Below, piece by piece: positions 38,407 to 46,267 of a stretch of 64,000 bases of DNA. The stretch is from Porphyrobacter sp. LM 6. GTDB taxonomy: Bacteria > Pseudomonadota > Alphaproteobacteria > Sphingomonadales > Sphingomonadaceae. The translations under genes and the position numbers were made by a program. The stretch spans positions 744,001 to 808,000 of the forward strand of contig NZ_CP017113.1 of the NCBI RefSeq assembly GCF_001720465.1, read 5' to 3'. The notes beneath the pieces are model-generated. The model was not told the origin of the DNA and ran no database searches. It was given only the letters and a program-made list of their open reading frames with translations. The first letter of the stretch is position 1, and each line of letters starts with the position of its first letter.

Positions 38407-40410
38407 GTGGACAGCAGCGAAACAGACCCCGCTTCCGCCGGTCAGGCCGACGCGCGCCCGCTGATTTTCCTCAGCTATTCGCGCACCGATCTTGCCCATG
38501 CACAGCCGGTGATCGCGCTGCTTGAAGCACAGGGCTATGCCGTATGGTGGGACGGGCGGCTGGAGGGCGGGGAGAACTATCTCCAGACCACCGAGGCGAC
38601 GCTCGAAGGCGCGGATTGCGTGGTGGTGCTGTGGTCGGCGACCTCGGTCGAATCCCATTGGGTGCGTGACGAGGCGCAGCGCGGGCGCGAGCGCGGATGC
38701 CTCGTGCCGCTCAGCATCGACGGGACTTTTGCCCCGCTCGGTTTCCGCCAGTTCCAGCTGCTCGACATCAGCGGGTGGGACGGCAAGCCCGCCAGCCCCG
38801 AAGCGGAACGGATCCTCGTCGCGGTGCGCGCGCGGATCGGGGGTGGAGCGGAAAGGCCGGTGCCCGTTCGGCCCATGCCCACCCCGGCTCAGCCCCAGCC
38901 ATCCACGCCTGCGCCCGCTCTGGCGCTTTCGCGGCGCACGTTGATGCTGGGCGGAGCTGGTGTTGCGGTGGGCGCCGGCCTGCTGGGCGCATGGCAGTTC
39001 GGCATGTTCGGCAGCCCCGCCAATGCCGCGATCTCGATGGTGGTGCTGCCCTTCGCCAACCAGACCGGCGATCCGGAAAAGAAGTATTTCTCTGACGGGC
39101 TGGCGCGCGAATTGCGGACTGTGCTGGCGCGCAATCCGCGCCTCAACGTCGCCGCGCCGACCTCCTCCTCGGCGATCGAGGGCGAAGATGATTTCGCCAT
39201 TGGCCGCAAGCTTGGCGTGGGTCATATTCTGCGCGGCAGCGTGCAGAGGGATACCGCGCGGGTGCGGGTCACCGCCGAGCTGATTGAAATCGAGGGCGGG
39301 CTGGTGCGCTGGGCCGAAACCTATGACCGCGCGCTGGAAGATGTCTTTGCGGTGCAATCCGAAATCGCGCAGACCGTGGCGGTCTCGCTCGTCGCCCAGA
39401 TCGCGACCGAGGGCGAGGCCAAGCAGGCCGCCGCCGCACAGGCCGAGATCGGCGGCACCAAATCCGTCGCCGCCTACGAGGCGTTCCTGCGCGGCCTTGC
39501 ATTCTACGATCTGTCCGCGGGCGAAGACACCGACCGCGCGGCGCTGGCGCAGTTCGATGCGGCAGTGGCTGATGATCCGGGCTATGCCGCCGCACACGCG
39601 ATGCGGGCAACGATGCTGGCGTCGCTGGCCAATGCTGCCAATGCGGCCGAGGAAGCCCGCCAGCTCTATGTGCAATCGATCGCTGCGGCAGAGCGGTCGA
39701 TTGCCATCGAGCCCAAGCTTGCCCGGGGGCAGGCCGCGCTGGGGTTCGCCCTCAACAACGGACAATTCAAGCGCGCGCAGGCCGCAGTGCATTATCGCGC
39801 GGCCGAGCAGCTGGCGGCAGGCGATGCCGATATTCTGCGCGGCGTGGCCATGTTCAATTCCTATGGCAATGCCAGCGAACAGGCCGTGGCCAAGCAGATG
39901 ATCGAGCGGGTGATCGAACTCGATCCGCTCAACGCCCGTGCCTTCCTCGCGGCGGGCTATATTGCGCTGTTTGCGCGTGATTACCCTCTGCTCATCACCC
40001 GGATGGAGCGGGCGCTGGCGATCAATCCGAGCATGACCAGCGCCAATTTCGGTATCGCCAACGCGCGGCTGATGATGGGCGATGCCGCTGGCGCACTCGC
40101 AGCGGCGGACAAGGAACCGGTTCAGGTGTTCTCGCTGACGGCAAAGGCGATCGCGGCGGGCCAGCTGGGCGATGCCGCCGCAGCGGATGCGGCCTATGCG
40201 GCGCTGATCGACCAGTATGGCGATGCAAGCCTGTATCAGCAGGGTCAGATCCTGGCACAGCGCGGCGCGCCGGATGAAGCGCTGGCGCGCTTGCAGCAGG
40301 CCTATGTCGCGCGCGATCCGGGATTGCTCTTCGCCCCTAATGACCCGCTGCTCGATCCGCTGCGGGGCGAGGCGGGCTTCAAGGATTTGCTTTCACGGCT
40401 CGGGTCGTGA
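38407..40410 (+). CDS. Membrane TIR-TPR protein
   Basis: A 667-residue protein in three parts. Residues 18-145 form a TIR domain: LIFLSYSRTDLAHAQPVIALL, YAVWWDGRLEGGENY, DCVVVLWSATSVESHWVRDE, where Glu89 falls at the catalytic-Glu position of NAD-cleaving TIR proteins. A Pro-rich linker leads to a TM helix (about 178-200). A TolB-like domain (MVVLPFANQTGDPEKKYFSDGLA) and TPR repeats (about 370-660) fill the periplasmic side. Such fusions may sense envelope state with the TPR part and signal through the cytosolic TIR. NADase activity is not proven. The start is GTG 38407, with GGGGGGCGAGG before it. Confidence 0.8.
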   Translation: MDSSETDPASAGQADARPLIFLSYSRTDLAHAQPVIALLEAQGYAVWWDGRLEGGENYLQTTEATLEGADCVVVLWSATSVESHWVRDEAQRGRERGCLVPLSIDGTFAPLGFRQFQLLDISGWDGKPASPEAERILVAVRARIGGGAERPVPVRPMPTPAQPQPSTPAPALALSRRTLMLGGAGVAVGAGLLGAWQFGMFGSPANAAISMVVLPFANQTGDPEKKYFSDGLARELRTVLARNPRLNVAAPTSSSAIEGEDDFAIGRKLGVGHILRGSVQRDTARVRVTAELIEIEGGLVRWAETYDRALEDVFAVQSEIAQTVAVSLVAQIATEGEAKQAAAAQAEIGGTKSVAAYEAFLRGLAFYDLSAGEDTDRAALAQFDAAVADDPGYAAAHAMRATMLASLANAANAAEEARQLYVQSIAAAERSIAIEPKLARGQAALGFALNNGQFKRAQAAVHYRAAEQLAAGDADILRGVAMFNSYGNASEQAVAKQMIERVIELDPLNARAFLAAGYIALFARDYPLLITRMERALAINPSMTSANFGIANARLMMGDAAGALAAADKEPVQVFSLTAKAIAAGQLGDAAAADAAYAALIDQYGDASLYQQGQILAQRGAPDEALARLQQAYVARDPGLLFAPNDPLLDPLRGEAGFKDLLSRLGS

Positions 40411-40456
40411 TAGCTCTTGCGCGGCCCTAAGGGGTGCTTTGAAGGGGGAATTCATC

Positions 40457-40705
40457 ATGAAGAAGATTGTGACGTTCGCAGTTGTGACCGGCGCTGCGCT
40501 GGCGCTCGCCGCATGTGGCGGCAAGAAGGAAGAAGAAGCGGCTCCGGCGGCGACCGAAGAAATGGCTCCGGCTGAAGCGCCTGCCGCTGACGAAGCCGCT
40601 GCGGCCGCCGAAGGGCTTGACCCGACCGGCAATCCGATTGGCCCGGCTGCTGATGCTCCGGCTGCCGACGGTGCAGCCGCAGAAGCCGCTCCTGCGGCCG
40701 AATAA
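40457..40705 (+). CDS. Small Ala/Glu-rich lipoprotein
   Basis: An 82-residue lipoprotein: MKKIVTFAVVTGAALALAACGGKKEEE has a signal peptide with lipobox LAAC. The rest is low-complexity Ala, Pro and Glu (EEMAPAEAPAADEAAAAAEG), giving an acidic disordered chain. The ATG at 40457 is preceded by GAAGGGGGAATTCATC. It follows the TIR gene by 46 bases and precedes a parS-like site by 20 bases. Function unknown. Confidence 0.7.
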   Translation: MKKIVTFAVVTGAALALAACGGKKEEEAAPAATEEMAPAEAPAADEAAAAAEGLDPTGNPIGPAADAPAADGAAAEAAPAAE

Positions 40706-40725
40706 GCGGATACCGACCCGCGTCA

Positions 40726-40741
40726 TGTTCCACGTGGAACA
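40726..40741. promoter_or_regulatory. parS-like centromere site, second copy
   Basis: TGTTCCACGTGGAACA, identical to 27768-27783, about 13 kb away and also intergenic. Two exact 16-bp palindromes in one window support real ParB sites. Confidence 0.75.
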
Positions 40742-40768
40742 TGGCGCGGGCCACCCCCAAGCGGGGGT

Positions 40769-43111
40769 CTAGCGCGACCTGGCAGGGGTCTGGCGCGCAC
40801 CAGCGGGAGGCAAGGTCTCCCTCAACCACTTCTGCACCAGCGGATGCGCAACGCGGATATAGCGGCTTGGCTTGCCAAGCGTGCCGCATTCGACGCCGCC
40901 GCTCACCACGCCGATGAGGGTCGGCACCTTGTCCGGATCGCTATAACTGATCAGCGGCCCGCCGCTATCGCCCCCGCATGCCTGCCCACCATCAACGGCG
41001 CGCAATTCATCGGCGCACAACACCGAATCCCGCCGTTTGGCATCGGTAAACCTTGTCTCGTTTGTACAGGCTGTCGTGTCGCGCAAGCGGACCCGTCCGC
41101 CGCGCAGTTCATCGGGGATGGCACCGCCGCGCACTTTGGTCAGGCCCCATCCATAGGTCGCCACAATCGGGAGAGCCTCGACCTTGCGCCTTGCCAGCGG
41201 CACCGGGTCTAGCCGGATGCGTGCCGGGGGGCGGGCATCGCTGCCGCGTTTGCCGCGCGCAGGATCGTATCGGATCAGCGCAATGTCGAACGCCAGCAGC
41301 TTCGGGTTGTATTCTGGATGCTTAAAGGTCGCGATGATCGGATAGCTATAACCCTCGTCACCCAACGCATTGGTAAGGCCCAGGCGGATGCTGTGTCCGG
41401 CGGTCTGGACTGGCACTCCGCCCATGGCCTTGTCGTTGACGCAATGTGCTGCGGTCAGCACCCAGCCGTCGCGGATTACCGAGCCACCGCAAAGCACCCG
41501 GTCCTGCGGTGAAAGCGGTGCCCCCTTGAAGGTTGCTGGCCTCCACAACAGCGCCTGCCACGGCGTGCTGCCGGGCGCGACCTTGAACCCGTTGATCACC
41601 CTCATGACCTTATCGCAAAGCCTGTCGGTATAGGTCGTTCCCATGAACACTACGCTTGTGCTGGTGCAGCGCCGCGCATTGAATTCCGCCGCATCGCGCG
41701 CTCTGGCCTCGGCCAACGCGTCCCTTTCCTCAGGGGTCAATTCGGGGATGTAATCGCTGTTCGCCAGCGCCAGCGGTGTCGCCGGATCCTCGGCAATCCG
41801 GGCTTGGAGATCGTTGCAGGCAGATTCATTCCCGGCATCACACAGATCCGCCTTCATCGACAATGCGCGCGGCACATCGGCGCGCAGACGGGCGCCGCTC
41901 TCGAGCTCTTTGGCCAGGAGCACGCAGGCATCATTTGCCGCCGCATTGCAGGCCCGGGTGAGATAAGCCTCAGCGCGCTCGGGTTCGGGGGGCGTGCCGG
42001 TGTCCCACTGTTCGAACAGGCTCTCGATTGCGAGCTGGCAGACCTCGCCGATCACCGCTGCATCCCGGGCCTGTTCGCACGCGGGCGCGAGCAGCGTGAG
42101 TGCGCGCGGCTTGTCCTGAAGCGGGCTGCCTGCTTTCGAATAGACTTTGCCAAGCGCGATGCAGGCTGCCTGATCACCCGCCGCACAATCGCGCTCGCGC
42201 TGCGGCTGGGCACGGATATCGGCGGCCGTTTCGCAGTGGTAGGAGGCCAGCGTGCAGGCGCGGTCATACCACGCCAAGGCCGCAGCGCGGGTCTCCTCGG
42301 TGGTGCCTTCGCGCAGCGCCTGCCGGCCAAGATCAGTGCATGGCTGAGCATCGCCAGCAGCACAGCCAAGCGCCTCGTATTCGCGCGTCTTGACCTGCGG
42401 TTCGGCCTCGATATCGCGCCAGTGCGTGACTGCTGTGCTGCAGGCCTCGGCATCGCCGGCGCGGCACAACCGGTCGATCAGCGCGCGGCCATCGGTTTTT
42501 TCTTCCTCGCTGCGATCCGGTCTGATGAGCGCCGATGCCAATGTGCGACAGGCCGAGGCACTGCCCTTGGCGCAGGTGGCGCGGCGCAGCGCTTCGGCAG
42601 CCGCGGGATCAGGCGGAGCGAGCACGCCTGCGGCTATGTCATCGGCCTCGGCCTCGCACCCTTCAAGCGTGCCGAGGCGGCAGGCGCGAACATGGAACAT
42701 CGCGGCGATCTGGTCGTCGGCCGGTTCGCCCAGCGTCACAAGCAGCTGACCAAGCCGGTAGCATCCGCCGCCCTCGCCCGCGTTGCAAGTCCGGCGGAAA
42801 AACAGTTCGGCCACCGGGCGGCTTTGCGTGCGGCCGGTGCCGGTCAGAAAGGCGGTGCCGACCGCAGTACAGGCGACCTGATCGCCCGCAGCGCAGGCTT
42901 CGGCATCGCTGTCGGCCTGCGCTTGTTCACGCGCAAATTGATCGGCAGGCTTGTCGGGCCTTGCGCGGTCATCTGTGCTTGATGGATAGGCACGCGGGAT
43001 CGGCGCATCGGCCACCGGTTCGGCTGGCGGGTCGTTCTGGGCCCGGGCCGATACCGCCGGAAGGGCCAGTGCCACCAGCCCGCTCATCACCAATGCCAGA
43101 AATCGCCGCAT
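40769..43111 (-). CDS. Secreted Sel1-repeat / trypsin-like protease fusion
   Basis: A 780-residue secreted protein: signal peptide MRRFLALVMSGLVALALPAVSARAQ, then about 400 residues of Cys-rich helical repeats of Sel1 type (for example RTCNAGEGGGCYRLGQLL, DRLCRAGDAEACSTAV, DRACTLASYHCETAADI), a helical linker, and a C-terminal S1 protease. The triad is His556 (VLTAAHCV), Asp609 (AFDIALIRYD) and Ser716 (GGDSGGPLIS). The paired Cys in each repeat suggests disulfide bonds in the periplasm. The substrate is unknown; the repeats could recruit it. It is divergent from the SLOG-fold gene. Confidence 0.85.
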   Translation of the reverse strand: MRRFLALVMSGLVALALPAVSARAQNDPPAEPVADAPIPRAYPSSTDDRARPDKPADQFAREQAQADSDAEACAAGDQVACTAVGTAFLTGTGRTQSRPVAELFFRRTCNAGEGGGCYRLGQLLVTLGEPADDQIAAMFHVRACRLGTLEGCEAEADDIAAGVLAPPDPAAAEALRRATCAKGSASACRTLASALIRPDRSEEEKTDGRALIDRLCRAGDAEACSTAVTHWRDIEAEPQVKTREYEALGCAAGDAQPCTDLGRQALREGTTEETRAAALAWYDRACTLASYHCETAADIRAQPQRERDCAAGDQAACIALGKVYSKAGSPLQDKPRALTLLAPACEQARDAAVIGEVCQLAIESLFEQWDTGTPPEPERAEAYLTRACNAAANDACVLLAKELESGARLRADVPRALSMKADLCDAGNESACNDLQARIAEDPATPLALANSDYIPELTPEERDALAEARARDAAEFNARRCTSTSVVFMGTTYTDRLCDKVMRVINGFKVAPGSTPWQALLWRPATFKGAPLSPQDRVLCGGSVIRDGWVLTAAHCVNDKAMGGVPVQTAGHSIRLGLTNALGDEGYSYPIIATFKHPEYNPKLLAFDIALIRYDPARGKRGSDARPPARIRLDPVPLARRKVEALPIVATYGWGLTKVRGGAIPDELRGGRVRLRDTTACTNETRFTDAKRRDSVLCADELRAVDGGQACGGDSGGPLISYSDPDKVPTLIGVVSGGVECGTLGKPSRYIRVAHPLVQKWLRETLPPAGARQTPARSR

Positions 43112-43267
43112 CGCCAGTCCCCCACTGCAACACTGCCCCAATCATGCGCCTTCGAAGGCTCAAGGTCAAACCGCTGGGTTGTGCCGCCTCGGGGCTTGAA
43201 AGCGGGCAAGACAAAGGCTTATGGACACCAGGTGCCCTCCGGGCCGGGGGGAGACGACGAGGTGCCG

Positions 43268-45289
43268 ATGCCTGCAACCCATGCTGCCAGTGTCGGAACC
43301 CGTATTCGCGACAACTGGCAGCCGCATCTCGCGCTGGGGATCACCGGCCACCGCGCGTCCAATCCGTCTTATGCCGCGCACCGCGCTGCGATCGCGACCG
43401 CGCTCGAGACGCTGTTCACGCGGATCGACACCATTGCTGCGGGGCTGCCCGATACGCAGGGGGCGATCCGGTTGCACAGCCTGATGGTTGATGGCACCGA
43501 TCAGATCGCCGCCGATCTCGCCGTGCAGCGCGGCTGGGAACTGGCGGTGCCGCTGCCTTTCGGCGCGGCGCTCAATTGCGCGATCAACGCCCATCCTGCC
43601 ACGCTGGCCGATGCGGAGGCTTTGCTGGCGGGCAGGCCGACGAGCGATCCCGCAGTCGAGGCGCACGCCGCTGCGATCCGCTCGCTCACCGTCCGCGCGC
43701 AGCTGTTCGAGCTAGCGGACCGCGACGACGAGGTCGAGGCGCTATGGCTTGCGACCCTCGCCGATCCCGAAGACCGCGCCGCCATCCGTGCGTTCGAGGC
43801 GCTGGCGTCGGACAATGTCGCGCTCGCCGGGCGGGTGATGATCGAGCGCACCGATCTGATGATCGCGGTGTGGGACGGGAAGGTTTCGAACTTGCCCGGC
43901 GGCACTGGTCACACGGTCGTCACCGCGCTGACGATGGGTACGCCGGTGCTGCTGATCGATCCTGCCGCGCCCGAAGCCTGGCGCATCATGACCCGCCCGG
44001 AAGAGCTCGGGCATATTGCCGGCGGGCCGGCCGATTCGCCCGATCTGGCGCGGCTGACCGCGATCATCCGCGCTGCGATGGTGGTTGAGGGGTGGAGCCC
44101 GGCGCAGCTGACCCGCGAGGTCTGGCATCCGCGCAGCAGCCGTCTGTTCGGCTTCTACCGCCGGATCGAGCGAGCCTTTGGCGGCGGCGGGATTGCCGGG
44201 TGGTTCAGCTCGATGGTGGCCCATTACGAAGCGCCCGAGGCCATCGCCAGCGGCAGCGGCGCGCGGGTTATCGCTGCGGCGCGGGCCATGCCCGGCGCGG
44301 ATGAGGCAGTCGCTGCCCAACTCGCCGACGAGATGCTCCCGGCCTTCGCCTGGGCCGATGGCATCGCCAGCCGCCTTGCCGATGCCTATCGCAGCGGGAT
44401 GTGCGTCAACTTCGTGCTGGCGACGCTCGCGGTGATTGTCGGTCTGGCGTACCTGCCGGCGGGCATGGGCGAGGTGAAGTGGCTGTTCGCCGTGGCCGAG
44501 CTCTTGCTGCTGCTGGGGATCGTGGTGTTGACCATCGCCGGTTCGCGGCGCGCCTGGCACGGGCGCTGGTTCGAACTGCGGCGCGTGGCCGAATATCTGC
44601 GCCACGCCCCATCGCTGCTGTTGCTCGGTGTGGCCCGGCCGACCGGCCGCTGGCCGCGCAACAGCGAAGAGGCTGACGAGGACGCCGCGCATGGCGGAGG
44701 CGACCGCGGCCAGTGGCCCGAACATTTCGCTCGCCACGCACTGCGCGATGTCGGCTTGCCGCAGGTCAAGGTAACGCGCGCCTACCTGCGCGCCGGGCTT
44801 GCCGAAGTGGCGCTGCCCCATGTCACCAGCCAGCGCGCCTATCACGAATTCAAGGCGCAGCGGCTCGAGACTGTCCACCGCCAGCTCGACCGCGCGGCCG
44901 AGACCTGCTTCGTCCTCGCTGTGGCCTCGGTGCTCGCCTATCTCTTGCTCAAGTCCGGCGGGATCGGCGGGCTGTTGCCCAAGCATCTGGCCAGCGATCT
45001 CTCGGCCCTGTTCACCTTCCTCGGTGTCGCCTTCCCGACGCTCGGCGCGAACCTTGCGGGCATCCGCTACTTCGGGGATTTCGAGCGCTTCGGCGCGATT
45101 TCGCGGGTCGCGGCGGAAAAGCTCGGCGAGATCGAGGCGCGTATGAACCTGCTGCTGACGGGGGCCGAAAGCGCGCTCACCTATGCCGCTGCGGCCGATC
45201 TGATGCACGCGCTTGACGAGGCAGTGGTGGACGAAATCGCCAGCTGGCAGTCGGTGTTCGGCGCGAAGCACCTTGCGCTTCCGGCCTGA
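43268..45289 (+). CDS. SLOG-fold sensor with four TM helices
   Basis: A 673-residue protein. Residues 19-232 have a SLOG/LOG-type Rossmann fold: LALGITGHRA, LMVDGTDQIAADLAVQRGWE, ERTDLMIAVWDGKV and GGTGHTVVTALTMGTPVLLID, where the GGTG loop is the expected nucleotide-binding site. Two TM helices follow (377-397, 405-425), then a helical region and two more (546-562, 577-600), like the SLATT/DUF4231 effector layout. SLOG domains bind nucleotide-derived signals; SLATT-type parts are thought to form membrane pores. ATG 43268 is chosen for its GAGG site and distance to the fold; function is inferred. Confidence 0.68.
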   Translation: MPATHAASVGTRIRDNWQPHLALGITGHRASNPSYAAHRAAIATALETLFTRIDTIAAGLPDTQGAIRLHSLMVDGTDQIAADLAVQRGWELAVPLPFGAALNCAINAHPATLADAEALLAGRPTSDPAVEAHAAAIRSLTVRAQLFELADRDDEVEALWLATLADPEDRAAIRAFEALASDNVALAGRVMIERTDLMIAVWDGKVSNLPGGTGHTVVTALTMGTPVLLIDPAAPEAWRIMTRPEELGHIAGGPADSPDLARLTAIIRAAMVVEGWSPAQLTREVWHPRSSRLFGFYRRIERAFGGGGIAGWFSSMVAHYEAPEAIASGSGARVIAAARAMPGADEAVAAQLADEMLPAFAWADGIASRLADAYRSGMCVNFVLATLAVIVGLAYLPAGMGEVKWLFAVAELLLLLGIVVLTIAGSRRAWHGRWFELRRVAEYLRHAPSLLLLGVARPTGRWPRNSEEADEDAAHGGGDRGQWPEHFARHALRDVGLPQVKVTRAYLRAGLAEVALPHVTSQRAYHEFKAQRLETVHRQLDRAAETCFVLAVASVLAYLLLKSGGIGGLLPKHLASDLSALFTFLGVAFPTLGANLAGIRYFGDFERFGAISRVAAEKLGEIEARMNLLLTGAESALTYAAAADLMHALDEAVVDEIASWQSVFGAKHLALPA

Positions 45290-45291
45290 TC

Positions 45292-46128
45292 CTAGAGAAG
45301 ATTGAGACTGCGTCCGATGCGGCCCGCCACTGCGCGCAGCGGTGGCGGAGCGGGTGCTGCTGCGGGATCATAGGGTGCAAGCCCGATCCGCCGCGCCACC
45401 GGATTGAGCGCCAGGGCATCGTCGAGCCGGCGGCTGGCGCGGCATTGCCAGGTCAGCGATAGCGCCACCGAGGCACCCATCCCGGCGCGCACCCAGTGCG
45501 GTGCAGCATGGGGCAGGAACAGCGCCTCACCCGGCGAAAGCAGGTGCTGCTCGCCCTGCGCTGCGAAGCTCGGGTTCCACGCCAGCCGGTTGCCCTCTCC
45601 GGCAAGGCAGGCCTCGCGCCGGTCAAGATCGAGGAATGGCGGTGTCGCCGGATAGGCGGCGATCACCTTGTCGCCGGAGAGCTGGAAGAGGATGTTGTAG
45701 CGGTTGTCGAAGTGGAACGGTGTCGGTGCACCCGGCGCGGTGAGGATCACCCGCGCGGTGGGTTCGTGCATCCGACCAGTGGCGCGCGCGATCACCGGAG
45801 CGAGTTCGGCCAGCAGCCGGTCGACAAGACGACGATAGGGCCGCAGTTGCTCGATTGCGTGGATGACGATGCTGCCGCGCTCGGGGCCTCCGGCGGCGAT
45901 GATCTCCGCCGGATCAGGCCCGGAGTCTGCCGCGCGATCCGCAGCGTCATCCGCCCCGTCATGTTCAGACCGCCGTTCGATCTGGTGCGAGGGCAGGACG
46001 CGCGCGGCATAGGCGAGCGAAGCGGATCCGAGCAGCGGCTCGGCAGCCAGAAAATGTGACAATCGTCCCGGCGCGTGCGGATACCTCTCGGCCAGTCGCG
46101 GCACCGAGACGGGGTCAATCAGCAACAT
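45292..46128 (-). CDS. Cupin-like (JmjC-type) protein
   Basis: A 278-residue protein. The centre has TPFHFDNRYNILFQLSGDKVI, with the HFD that begins a cupin/JmjC iron site, and LSPGEALFLPHAAPHWVRAG with the third-ligand His region. This pattern fits Fe(II)/2-oxoglutarate-type hydroxylases of the JmjC-like group, acting on proteins or small molecules. The start is ATG 46128; the 33 codons before it look unstructured. It converges on the SLOG gene with two bases between stops. Confidence 0.7.
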   Translation of the reverse strand: MLLIDPVSVPRLAERYPHAPGRLSHFLAAEPLLGSASLAYAARVLPSHQIERRSEHDGADDAADRAADSGPDPAEIIAAGGPERGSIVIHAIEQLRPYRRLVDRLLAELAPVIARATGRMHEPTARVILTAPGAPTPFHFDNRYNILFQLSGDKVIAAYPATPPFLDLDRREACLAGEGNRLAWNPSFAAQGEQHLLSPGEALFLPHAAPHWVRAGMGASVALSLTWQCRASRRLDDALALNPVARRIGLAPYDPAAAPAPPPLRAVAGRIGRSLNLL

Positions 46129-46267
46129 GATTGCGGCCCTGTAGCAAAAAACCCTGCTCGATATCAGCGATTTAGGCTGAATCTCTGAATCAGTCATTAA
46201 TGTTTTTCGCACACCAAGGTGCCGCATCTGCCGCGCGGCAGATCAGTCATGCAGTTGCCACAAGAAA

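Follow-up and report, generated by a model that had tools for sequence, protein, structure and literature searches.

Four adjacent genes at positions 38407..45289 of a 64,000-nucleotide stretch of Porphyrobacter sp. LM 6 DNA (contig NZ_CP017113.1; the whole stretch is called here the window) may constitute a trans-envelope signalling or defence cassette, in which an exported protease and a small lipoprotein would gate a transmembrane TIR receptor, and the product of the receptor would open a membrane protein made of SLOG-like and SLATT parts. Judging from sequence comparisons, we give this reading a probability of about 0.55. The original prediction, made from the letters of the window, had described the four genes as a cluster; each is found where it had been placed, and the homologues, which could have proved to be scattered in related genomes, stay together.

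Conserved linkage of the cassette genes

Of the 119 genomes of the family sample, 26 have SLOG-SLATT and 65 have a TIR domain. The distance between SLOG-SLATT and a TIR is no more than 10 kb in 20 of the 26, the genome of strain LM 6 included, against 0.53 expected (P ~1e-31); for two genomes, G010 and G020, this count uses whichever SLOG piece or copy is close to a TIR, and with the best-scoring copy it becomes 18 of 26 (P 6e-27). With the LM 6 genome excluded, the counts are 19 of 25 or, by best copy, 17 of 25. A TIR domain is encoded somewhere in all 26 genomes with SLOG-SLATT and in 39 of the 93 without it (p 9e-9). The genes might be chance neighbours with no joint role, as suggested by their mixed orientations in the window and by the six genomes that have no TIR within 10 kb (G003, G055, G073, G083, G101 and G116, in three of which TIR and SLOG-SLATT are on separate contigs throughout); these six weigh against the cassette as well. 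The linkage statistics, however, contradict chance clustering, which has a negligible probability and can be considered ruled out.

Families other than the window's also supply the partner TIR. A TIR-TPR protein of another family, F7, is encoded near SLOG-SLATT in loci L112, L123, L124, L126 and L128, its gene overlapping that of SLOG-SLATT in L124, and L104 has, successively on the same strand, the genes for a TIR, for a 707-residue protein, whose NAD-binding match is weak, and for SLOG-SLATT. Proteins like the second of these (F10, 700-1000 residues, with the weak NAD-binding match) are repeatedly found with TIR and SLOG-SLATT (L104:9129-11252, L187, L213, L228, L236, L293), and these loci perhaps represent another subtype. 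Strain LM 6 itself has a second TIR-TPR gene, of family F7 (L130:7184-9250, C1 ~2324818), and no SLOG-SLATT was found in the 18-kb stretch that contains it.

A scan of named genomes for SLOG-SLATT gave 161 loci, of which 80 were kept; the codon-based gene caller failed on some lower-GC loci. The kept loci come mainly from Erythrobacter and Porphyrobacter, then from Novosphingobium, Qipengyuania, Hyphomonadaceae, Caulobacter, Phenylobacterium and Lysobacter, and profile matches are found to SLOG-SLATT in 74 of them, to the receptor in 50, to TIR in 45 and to the protease in 32. Receptor, protease and SLOG-SLATT are present as one block in 28 of the 31 Erythrobacter-type loci. The window's left neighbour, a Band7 gene, is in the locus for 15 of these blocks and absent for 11 despite at least 2.9 kb of left flank, while the remaining two end at the receptor. 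Because 11 of the 28 have other flanks, the block persists at more than one chromosomal site. Loci can also be centred on the receptor: 60 of them, which are some of the strongest matches to a profile built partly from receptors beside SLOG-SLATT, contain the protease (34), SLOG-SLATT (28), a CASP3-type caspase (11) and a K+ channel gene with two transmembrane segments (11). Twenty further receptor loci, at least five of which are records seen before, contain the protease in 16 cases and SLOG-SLATT in 12. The sample sets overlap, several genomes being records also taken under names. The joint role, which had been offered as inference from a single stretch, is thus supported by linkage that is conserved across many species and is not tied to a single site, by TIR and SLOG-SLATT being neighbours on the same strand in relatives, and by the presence of TIR in every genome that has SLOG-SLATT.

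In the class sample, 2 of 376 genomes have the receptor at E<=1e-100, and the two belong to the same genus as LM 6; in the order sample it is found in 63 of 336 genomes, two of them outside the family; loci from Lysobacter, Phenylobacterium and Hyphomonadaceae nevertheless surfaced in the SLOG-SLATT scan. Carriage by plasmids or phages was considered and rejected, SLOG-SLATT being present in 3 of 72,556 plasmid records and in none of 50,697 phage records. No defence-island setting was evident either: of eight neighbouring proteins of relatives compared with PADLOC, seven had no match, and one, which we take to be a phospholipase D-like protein, had DrmC/MkoB-type matches. This counts against a defence cassette, and would fit a physiological pathway of envelope or osmotic stress, in which the TIR product, SLOG-SLATT and the K+ channel tune ion flux without killing; so would the channel as a partner and the one common site, with Band7 in the locus, of 15 of the 28 complete blocks. 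Such a pathway sits less well with the patchy distribution of SLOG-SLATT (26 of 119 family genomes), with the other flanks of 11 blocks, and with the swapping of cassette parts for caspase, CHAT and nSTAND1 genes (see below), which is like that of conflict systems, and we consider it unlikely.

The receptor

The receptor gene (38407..40410, + strand) encodes 667 residues, starting with a TIR domain (38464..38781, + strand; residues 20-125) that matches Pfam TIR_2 (PF13676) at E 2.2e-18 and 67.3 bits, the cut-off being 28. All 43 relatives match the same profile at E<=0.001. Glu89, already singled out in the original prediction as a residue of catalytic type, is located within a W-x-x-x-E stretch and is invariant in 43 of 43 aligned relatives; we take the glutamate of this stretch to be the NADase catalytic residue of TIR enzymes, and predict the TIR half to be an NADase. 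A single transmembrane segment near residues 178-196 separates it from the second half, which consists of a region that we presume to be, and call, TolB/FlgO-like, and of TPR, matches to which are weak in the window receptor and strong in relatives.

A pair of arginines directly precedes the transmembrane segment (S175-R176-R177 in the window). Of 138 receptors scanned for a charged pair, 27 have none in the scanned stretch, including soluble forms and extended reading frames; in the other 111 the pair is RR in 108, KR in two and RK in one, compared to RR in 134 of 244 charged pairs that precede internal transmembrane segments of other proteins in these loci. In many receptors a serine comes before the two arginines and a Gly-rich hydrophobic stretch after them. 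The arrangement looks like a Tat-type signal anchor, which we assume an RR motif followed by a hydrophobic stretch to be. Since this anchor stands before the transmembrane segment, the TPR half is probably located in the periplasm and the TIR half in the cytosol. At two loci (L108:8862-10643 and L115:355-2136) the receptor has a hydrophobic N-terminus in place of TIR and the lipoprotein is kept; both loci are without SLOG-SLATT, and L115 sits at a contig end. Fourteen TIR domain matches, several of them in adjoining genes, are found in the 2.2 Mb genome G077 (L107, L129).

The lipoprotein and its protease

The lipoprotein gene (40457..40705, + strand) encodes 82 residues, with a lipobox Cys20, a linker rich in Ala, Pro and Glu, and a tail containing the motif DPTGNPIGP. 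An open reading frame of 40-150 residues with a signal peptide and a lipobox starts no more than 120 bp downstream of the gene for 45 of 65 receptors; among other genes that encode 300 residues or more, 10 of 730 are followed by one (these counts are not deduplicated). In 95% clusters, the lipoprotein accompanies 73 of the 82 receptors that have a protease no more than 7 kb away and 6 of the 42 that do not; in 55% clusters, the same association is 17 of 21 vs 2 of 23 (p 1.6e-6). The small lipoprotein of the original prediction is therefore a member of the cassette, but it is the protease with which it belongs.

The protease itself (40769..43111, - strand) matches Pfam Trypsin at E 8.1e-34 and contains the His, Asp and Ser motifs AAHC, FDIAL and GDSGG, as well as a signal peptide recognised by eye. 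Of 117 protease open reading frames, 113 have serine at the 195 column. The earlier description of a secreted protease with an intact triad holds; the Sel1 repeats named with it match narrowly below the cut-off, and we call the N-terminal part Sel1-like.

Five receptor loci (L109, L111, L238, L244 and L277) lack both the protease and the lipoprotein. There the receptor is beside a set of nSTAND1, CHAT and caspase or alpha-beta-hydrolase genes, the exported protease being replaced. Most of the caspases inspected by eye in protease-bearing loci begin with a signal peptide or a lipobox, and those of the caspase-CHAT-nSTAND1 loci L109, L111 and L238, likewise inspected by eye, do not. Because the former look exported and the latter do not, two arms, one outside the cell and one inside, seem to be interchangeable.

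The protease and lipoprotein might also be a separate periplasmic unit that travels along with a cooperating pair of TIR and SLOG-SLATT. Receptors with SLOG-SLATT and with neither protease nor lipoprotein do occur (10 of 124 clusters without caspase genes, and two more with them), and the TIR-less receptors of L108 and L115 retain the lipoprotein. Yet the lipoprotein gene is directly downstream of the receptor gene, and the receptor is one polypeptide that unites both halves; we regard a separate unit as improbable, more so than the stress pathway above.

Covariation of the protease S1 residue and the lipoprotein tail

The S1 position of the protease, which we label as residue 189 on the assumption of chymotrypsin numbering, is Gln in the window. 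Among the 117 protease open reading frames it is Gln in 44, Asp in 38, Phe in 16, Gly in four, Ala in four, Lys in three, Thr in two, and His and Leu in one each, and could not be assigned in four. The tails of the adjacent lipoproteins vary with it. Next to Asp189 proteases they mostly contain [DE]R, often in tandem (ERTGP, DDRTG, ERGNP); next to Phe189 proteases they read NDQGS, TDQGS or TDHGN; and in the Gln189 clade of the window they read DPTGNPIGP and similar. For the counts, tails failing a composition rule were dropped, as were those of L188, L284 and L285, which are spurious open reading frames, and identical tails were counted once (by the last 25 residues in the tail set, by the last 28 in the tree and Pagel analyses). 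In 90% clusters of 90 loci, [DE]R is present in 19 of 24 Asp189 cases vs 1 of 51 others, and in 55% clusters, 3 of 19 of which are mixed in S1 type, in 9 of 10 vs 1 of 9 (p 0.0011). The tail [DE][QH]G is found in 8 of 9 Phe189 cases vs none of 66 others, and in 2 of 2 vs 0 of 17 of the 55% clusters. A simpler rule, any Arg for Asp189, was set aside, being weaker than [DE]R on the tree.

On a quick, midpoint-rooted receptor tree, a Pagel test favours dependent evolution of S1 and tail (likelihood ratio 25.9, p 3e-5). Asp189 changes eight times on this tree; the tail is concordant in 4.1, on average, of six supported independent pairs, and never opposite. The most telling are two swaps between neighbours on the tree: L255, with Gly189 and DEFTGP, is next to L094 and L095, with Asp189 and ERTGP, and L271, with Gly189 and GHGNP, is next to L272, with Asp189 and ERGNP. 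A later set has 13 loci, five of them records already in the first set; in the eight new ones, [DE]R is seen in two of three Asp189 loci, the third having DNR repeats, and in none of five others.

Several observations weigh against this correspondence. The tail motifs were picked after the first loci had been inspected, a tree-aware sign test does not reach significance (median p 0.125, range 0.031-0.25), and Phe189 has a single origin on the receptor tree. The only Phe189 locus among the eight new ones has MQGSTDH, outside the strict motif; L096 has Gly189 and retains ERGN; 5 of 24 Asp189 clusters are without [DE]R, and the tail of L273 has no Arg whatever. For the window's own Gln189 clade, no residue of cleavage can be named.

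Given that the S1 residue covaries with the tail, the lipoprotein is probably a substrate or an inhibitor of the protease. As an inhibitor or an anchor, it would belong to the same cassette, would place a product-like tail in the S1 pocket, and would not be a signalling substrate. Matching of tail and S1 is expected of inhibitors too, and all ten Phe189 tails on the tree end in Asp-Gln or Asp-His, the residue expected in S1. The tails are, on the other hand, of low complexity and often tandemly repeated (nine EDDR in L251), which is better suited to a disordered substrate, and an inhibitor or anchor appears to us a doubtful alternative to a signalling substrate.

The SLOG-SLATT protein

The fourth gene (43268..45289, + strand; the frame is open from 43181) encodes the putative effector. 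Its match to the NCBIfam profile SLATT_1 has E 8.5e-07 and 29.2 bits vs a curated cut-off of 41, and Pfam DUF4231 is narrowly below its cut-off; SLATT_1 matches 51 of 58 relatives at E<=0.001, and DUF4231 matches 42. The four transmembrane helices of the original prediction fit the hydrophobic stretches of the protein, and the SLOG-like half has a GGTGH loop, with both glycines of GGT invariant across relatives and the threonine nearly so. The SLOG fold, predicted together with them, is only weakly matched, and this too weighs against the proposed cassette: among 58 relatives, SLOG-type matches are limited to DprA in one, YAcAr in one and ShosA in three; hhalign against DprA aligned 25 columns around GxDxxA (probability 5.5, E 0.007); and the best PDB chain, a nucleoside deoxyribosyltransferase, has E 0.3. 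The SLOG assignment is plausible and not secure, the weakest of our domain calls.

In many loci, SLOG-SLATT adjoins an Ion_trans_2 gene for the two-segment K+ channel (for example, L094:11913-12380), which is not found in the window. All 14 receptor clusters that have the channel gene also have SLOG-SLATT, and in 21 of 24 channel-effector pairs the two are no more than 200 bp apart. Since the K+ channel goes with SLOG-SLATT, the output of the cassette is predicted to be at the membrane. The cassette of the window is adjoined by a gene (45292-46227, - strand) with a weak JmjC/cupin-like match below the cut-off.

Comparison with known systems

Thoeris combines a TIR signal maker with a SLOG-bearing effector, and it is in this combination that the cassette is like it. 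The tested features of Thoeris effectors are absent: scans with Pfam, PADLOC and NCBIfam profiles detected no SIR2 or Macro domain in the window effector or its relatives. Thoeris ThsB/ThcB4 profiles match the window TIR below threshold (PF08937, 15.5 vs 21.2 bits; NF058526, 20.2 vs 220), and the best PADLOC match of this TIR is SAVED_TIR (4e-9), with ThsB at 0.024. Membership in Thoeris was therefore rejected.

In the animal Toll pathway, a serine protease acts outside the cell, together with a small exported protein and a single-pass receptor with extracytoplasmic repeats and a cytosolic TIR. The cassette has the same complement of an outside protease, a small exported protein, and a single-pass receptor with repeats outside and TIR inside. 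The repeats here are TPR matches, and a leucine-rich-repeat ectodomain was not found in the receptor; the small protein is a lipoprotein and not a cytokine, and the predicted output is an NAD product, so that the likeness is one of analogy only.

The nearest precedent, replacing the Thoeris-like logic of the original prediction, is the pairing of TIR with SLATT. TIR next to a predicted SLATT effector, with SLATT as a membrane effector gated by ADP-ribose derivatives, has already been proposed, and trypsin and caspase peptidases are found in related conflict systems (PMC9503650, PMC7159879). As far as the consulted portions of these papers go, the TIR there is not a transmembrane receptor, SLATT, which our cassette has in fusion with a SLOG-like domain, is a separate protein with two transmembrane segments, and there is no account of an exported protease that comes with a matched lipoprotein. 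In antiviral nuclease-protease pairs, and as proposed for the cassette, a trypsin-like protease acts on the cognate partner that is encoded alongside; the partner there is a pro-nuclease, and the consulted portion of that paper makes no mention of periplasm, lipoprotein or SLATT (PMC12799240). A unit of exported protease, lipoprotein and TIR was not found in the open-licence literature searched. The pairing of TIR and SLATT is known, and the coupling of an outside half to a transmembrane TIR is, as far as that literature goes, provisionally new.

Proposed mechanism and significance

In the proposed scheme, the low-complexity tail of the lipoprotein would present, in the periplasm, a site fitted to the exported trypsin-fold protease, which would either cut the tail or be plugged by it. 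The TolB/TPR half of the receptor, held by its Tat-type anchor, would sense the state of the tail, be it cleaved, released or occupied. Once triggered, the receptor would convert NAD+ to an ADP-ribose-type signal by its cytosolic TIR, the SLOG domain of the SLOG-SLATT protein would bind this signal, and the SLATT helices would permeabilise the membrane, in many species jointly with the two-segment K+ channel. Phage entry, predation and envelope damage are candidate triggers.

A stronger version can be offered tentatively, as something that we think may well turn out otherwise. The cassette would then be a bacterial Toll-like pathway, in which the protease cuts the lipoprotein where the sequence suits its S1 pocket, the TPR-TIR receptor is activated by the peptide or by the exposed tail, and the NAD-derived product opens SLOG-SLATT, together with the K+ channel where there is one; phage entry, the attack of a rival and other such events in the periplasm would thereby lead to arrest of growth or to death. 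The specificity of the protease and the peptide code would co-diversify between species.

To our knowledge, the known bacterial TIR immune systems sense within the cytosol. The cassette is arranged in a manner reminiscent of animal Toll signalling, and bacteria could have in it a novel means of detecting disturbances of their envelope. If the scheme is true, bacteria couple envelope events to NAD-based immune signalling by means of a periplasmic sensor half, the S1-tail code yields predictions that can be tested with small peptides, and the cassette would parallel Toll signalling by convergence.

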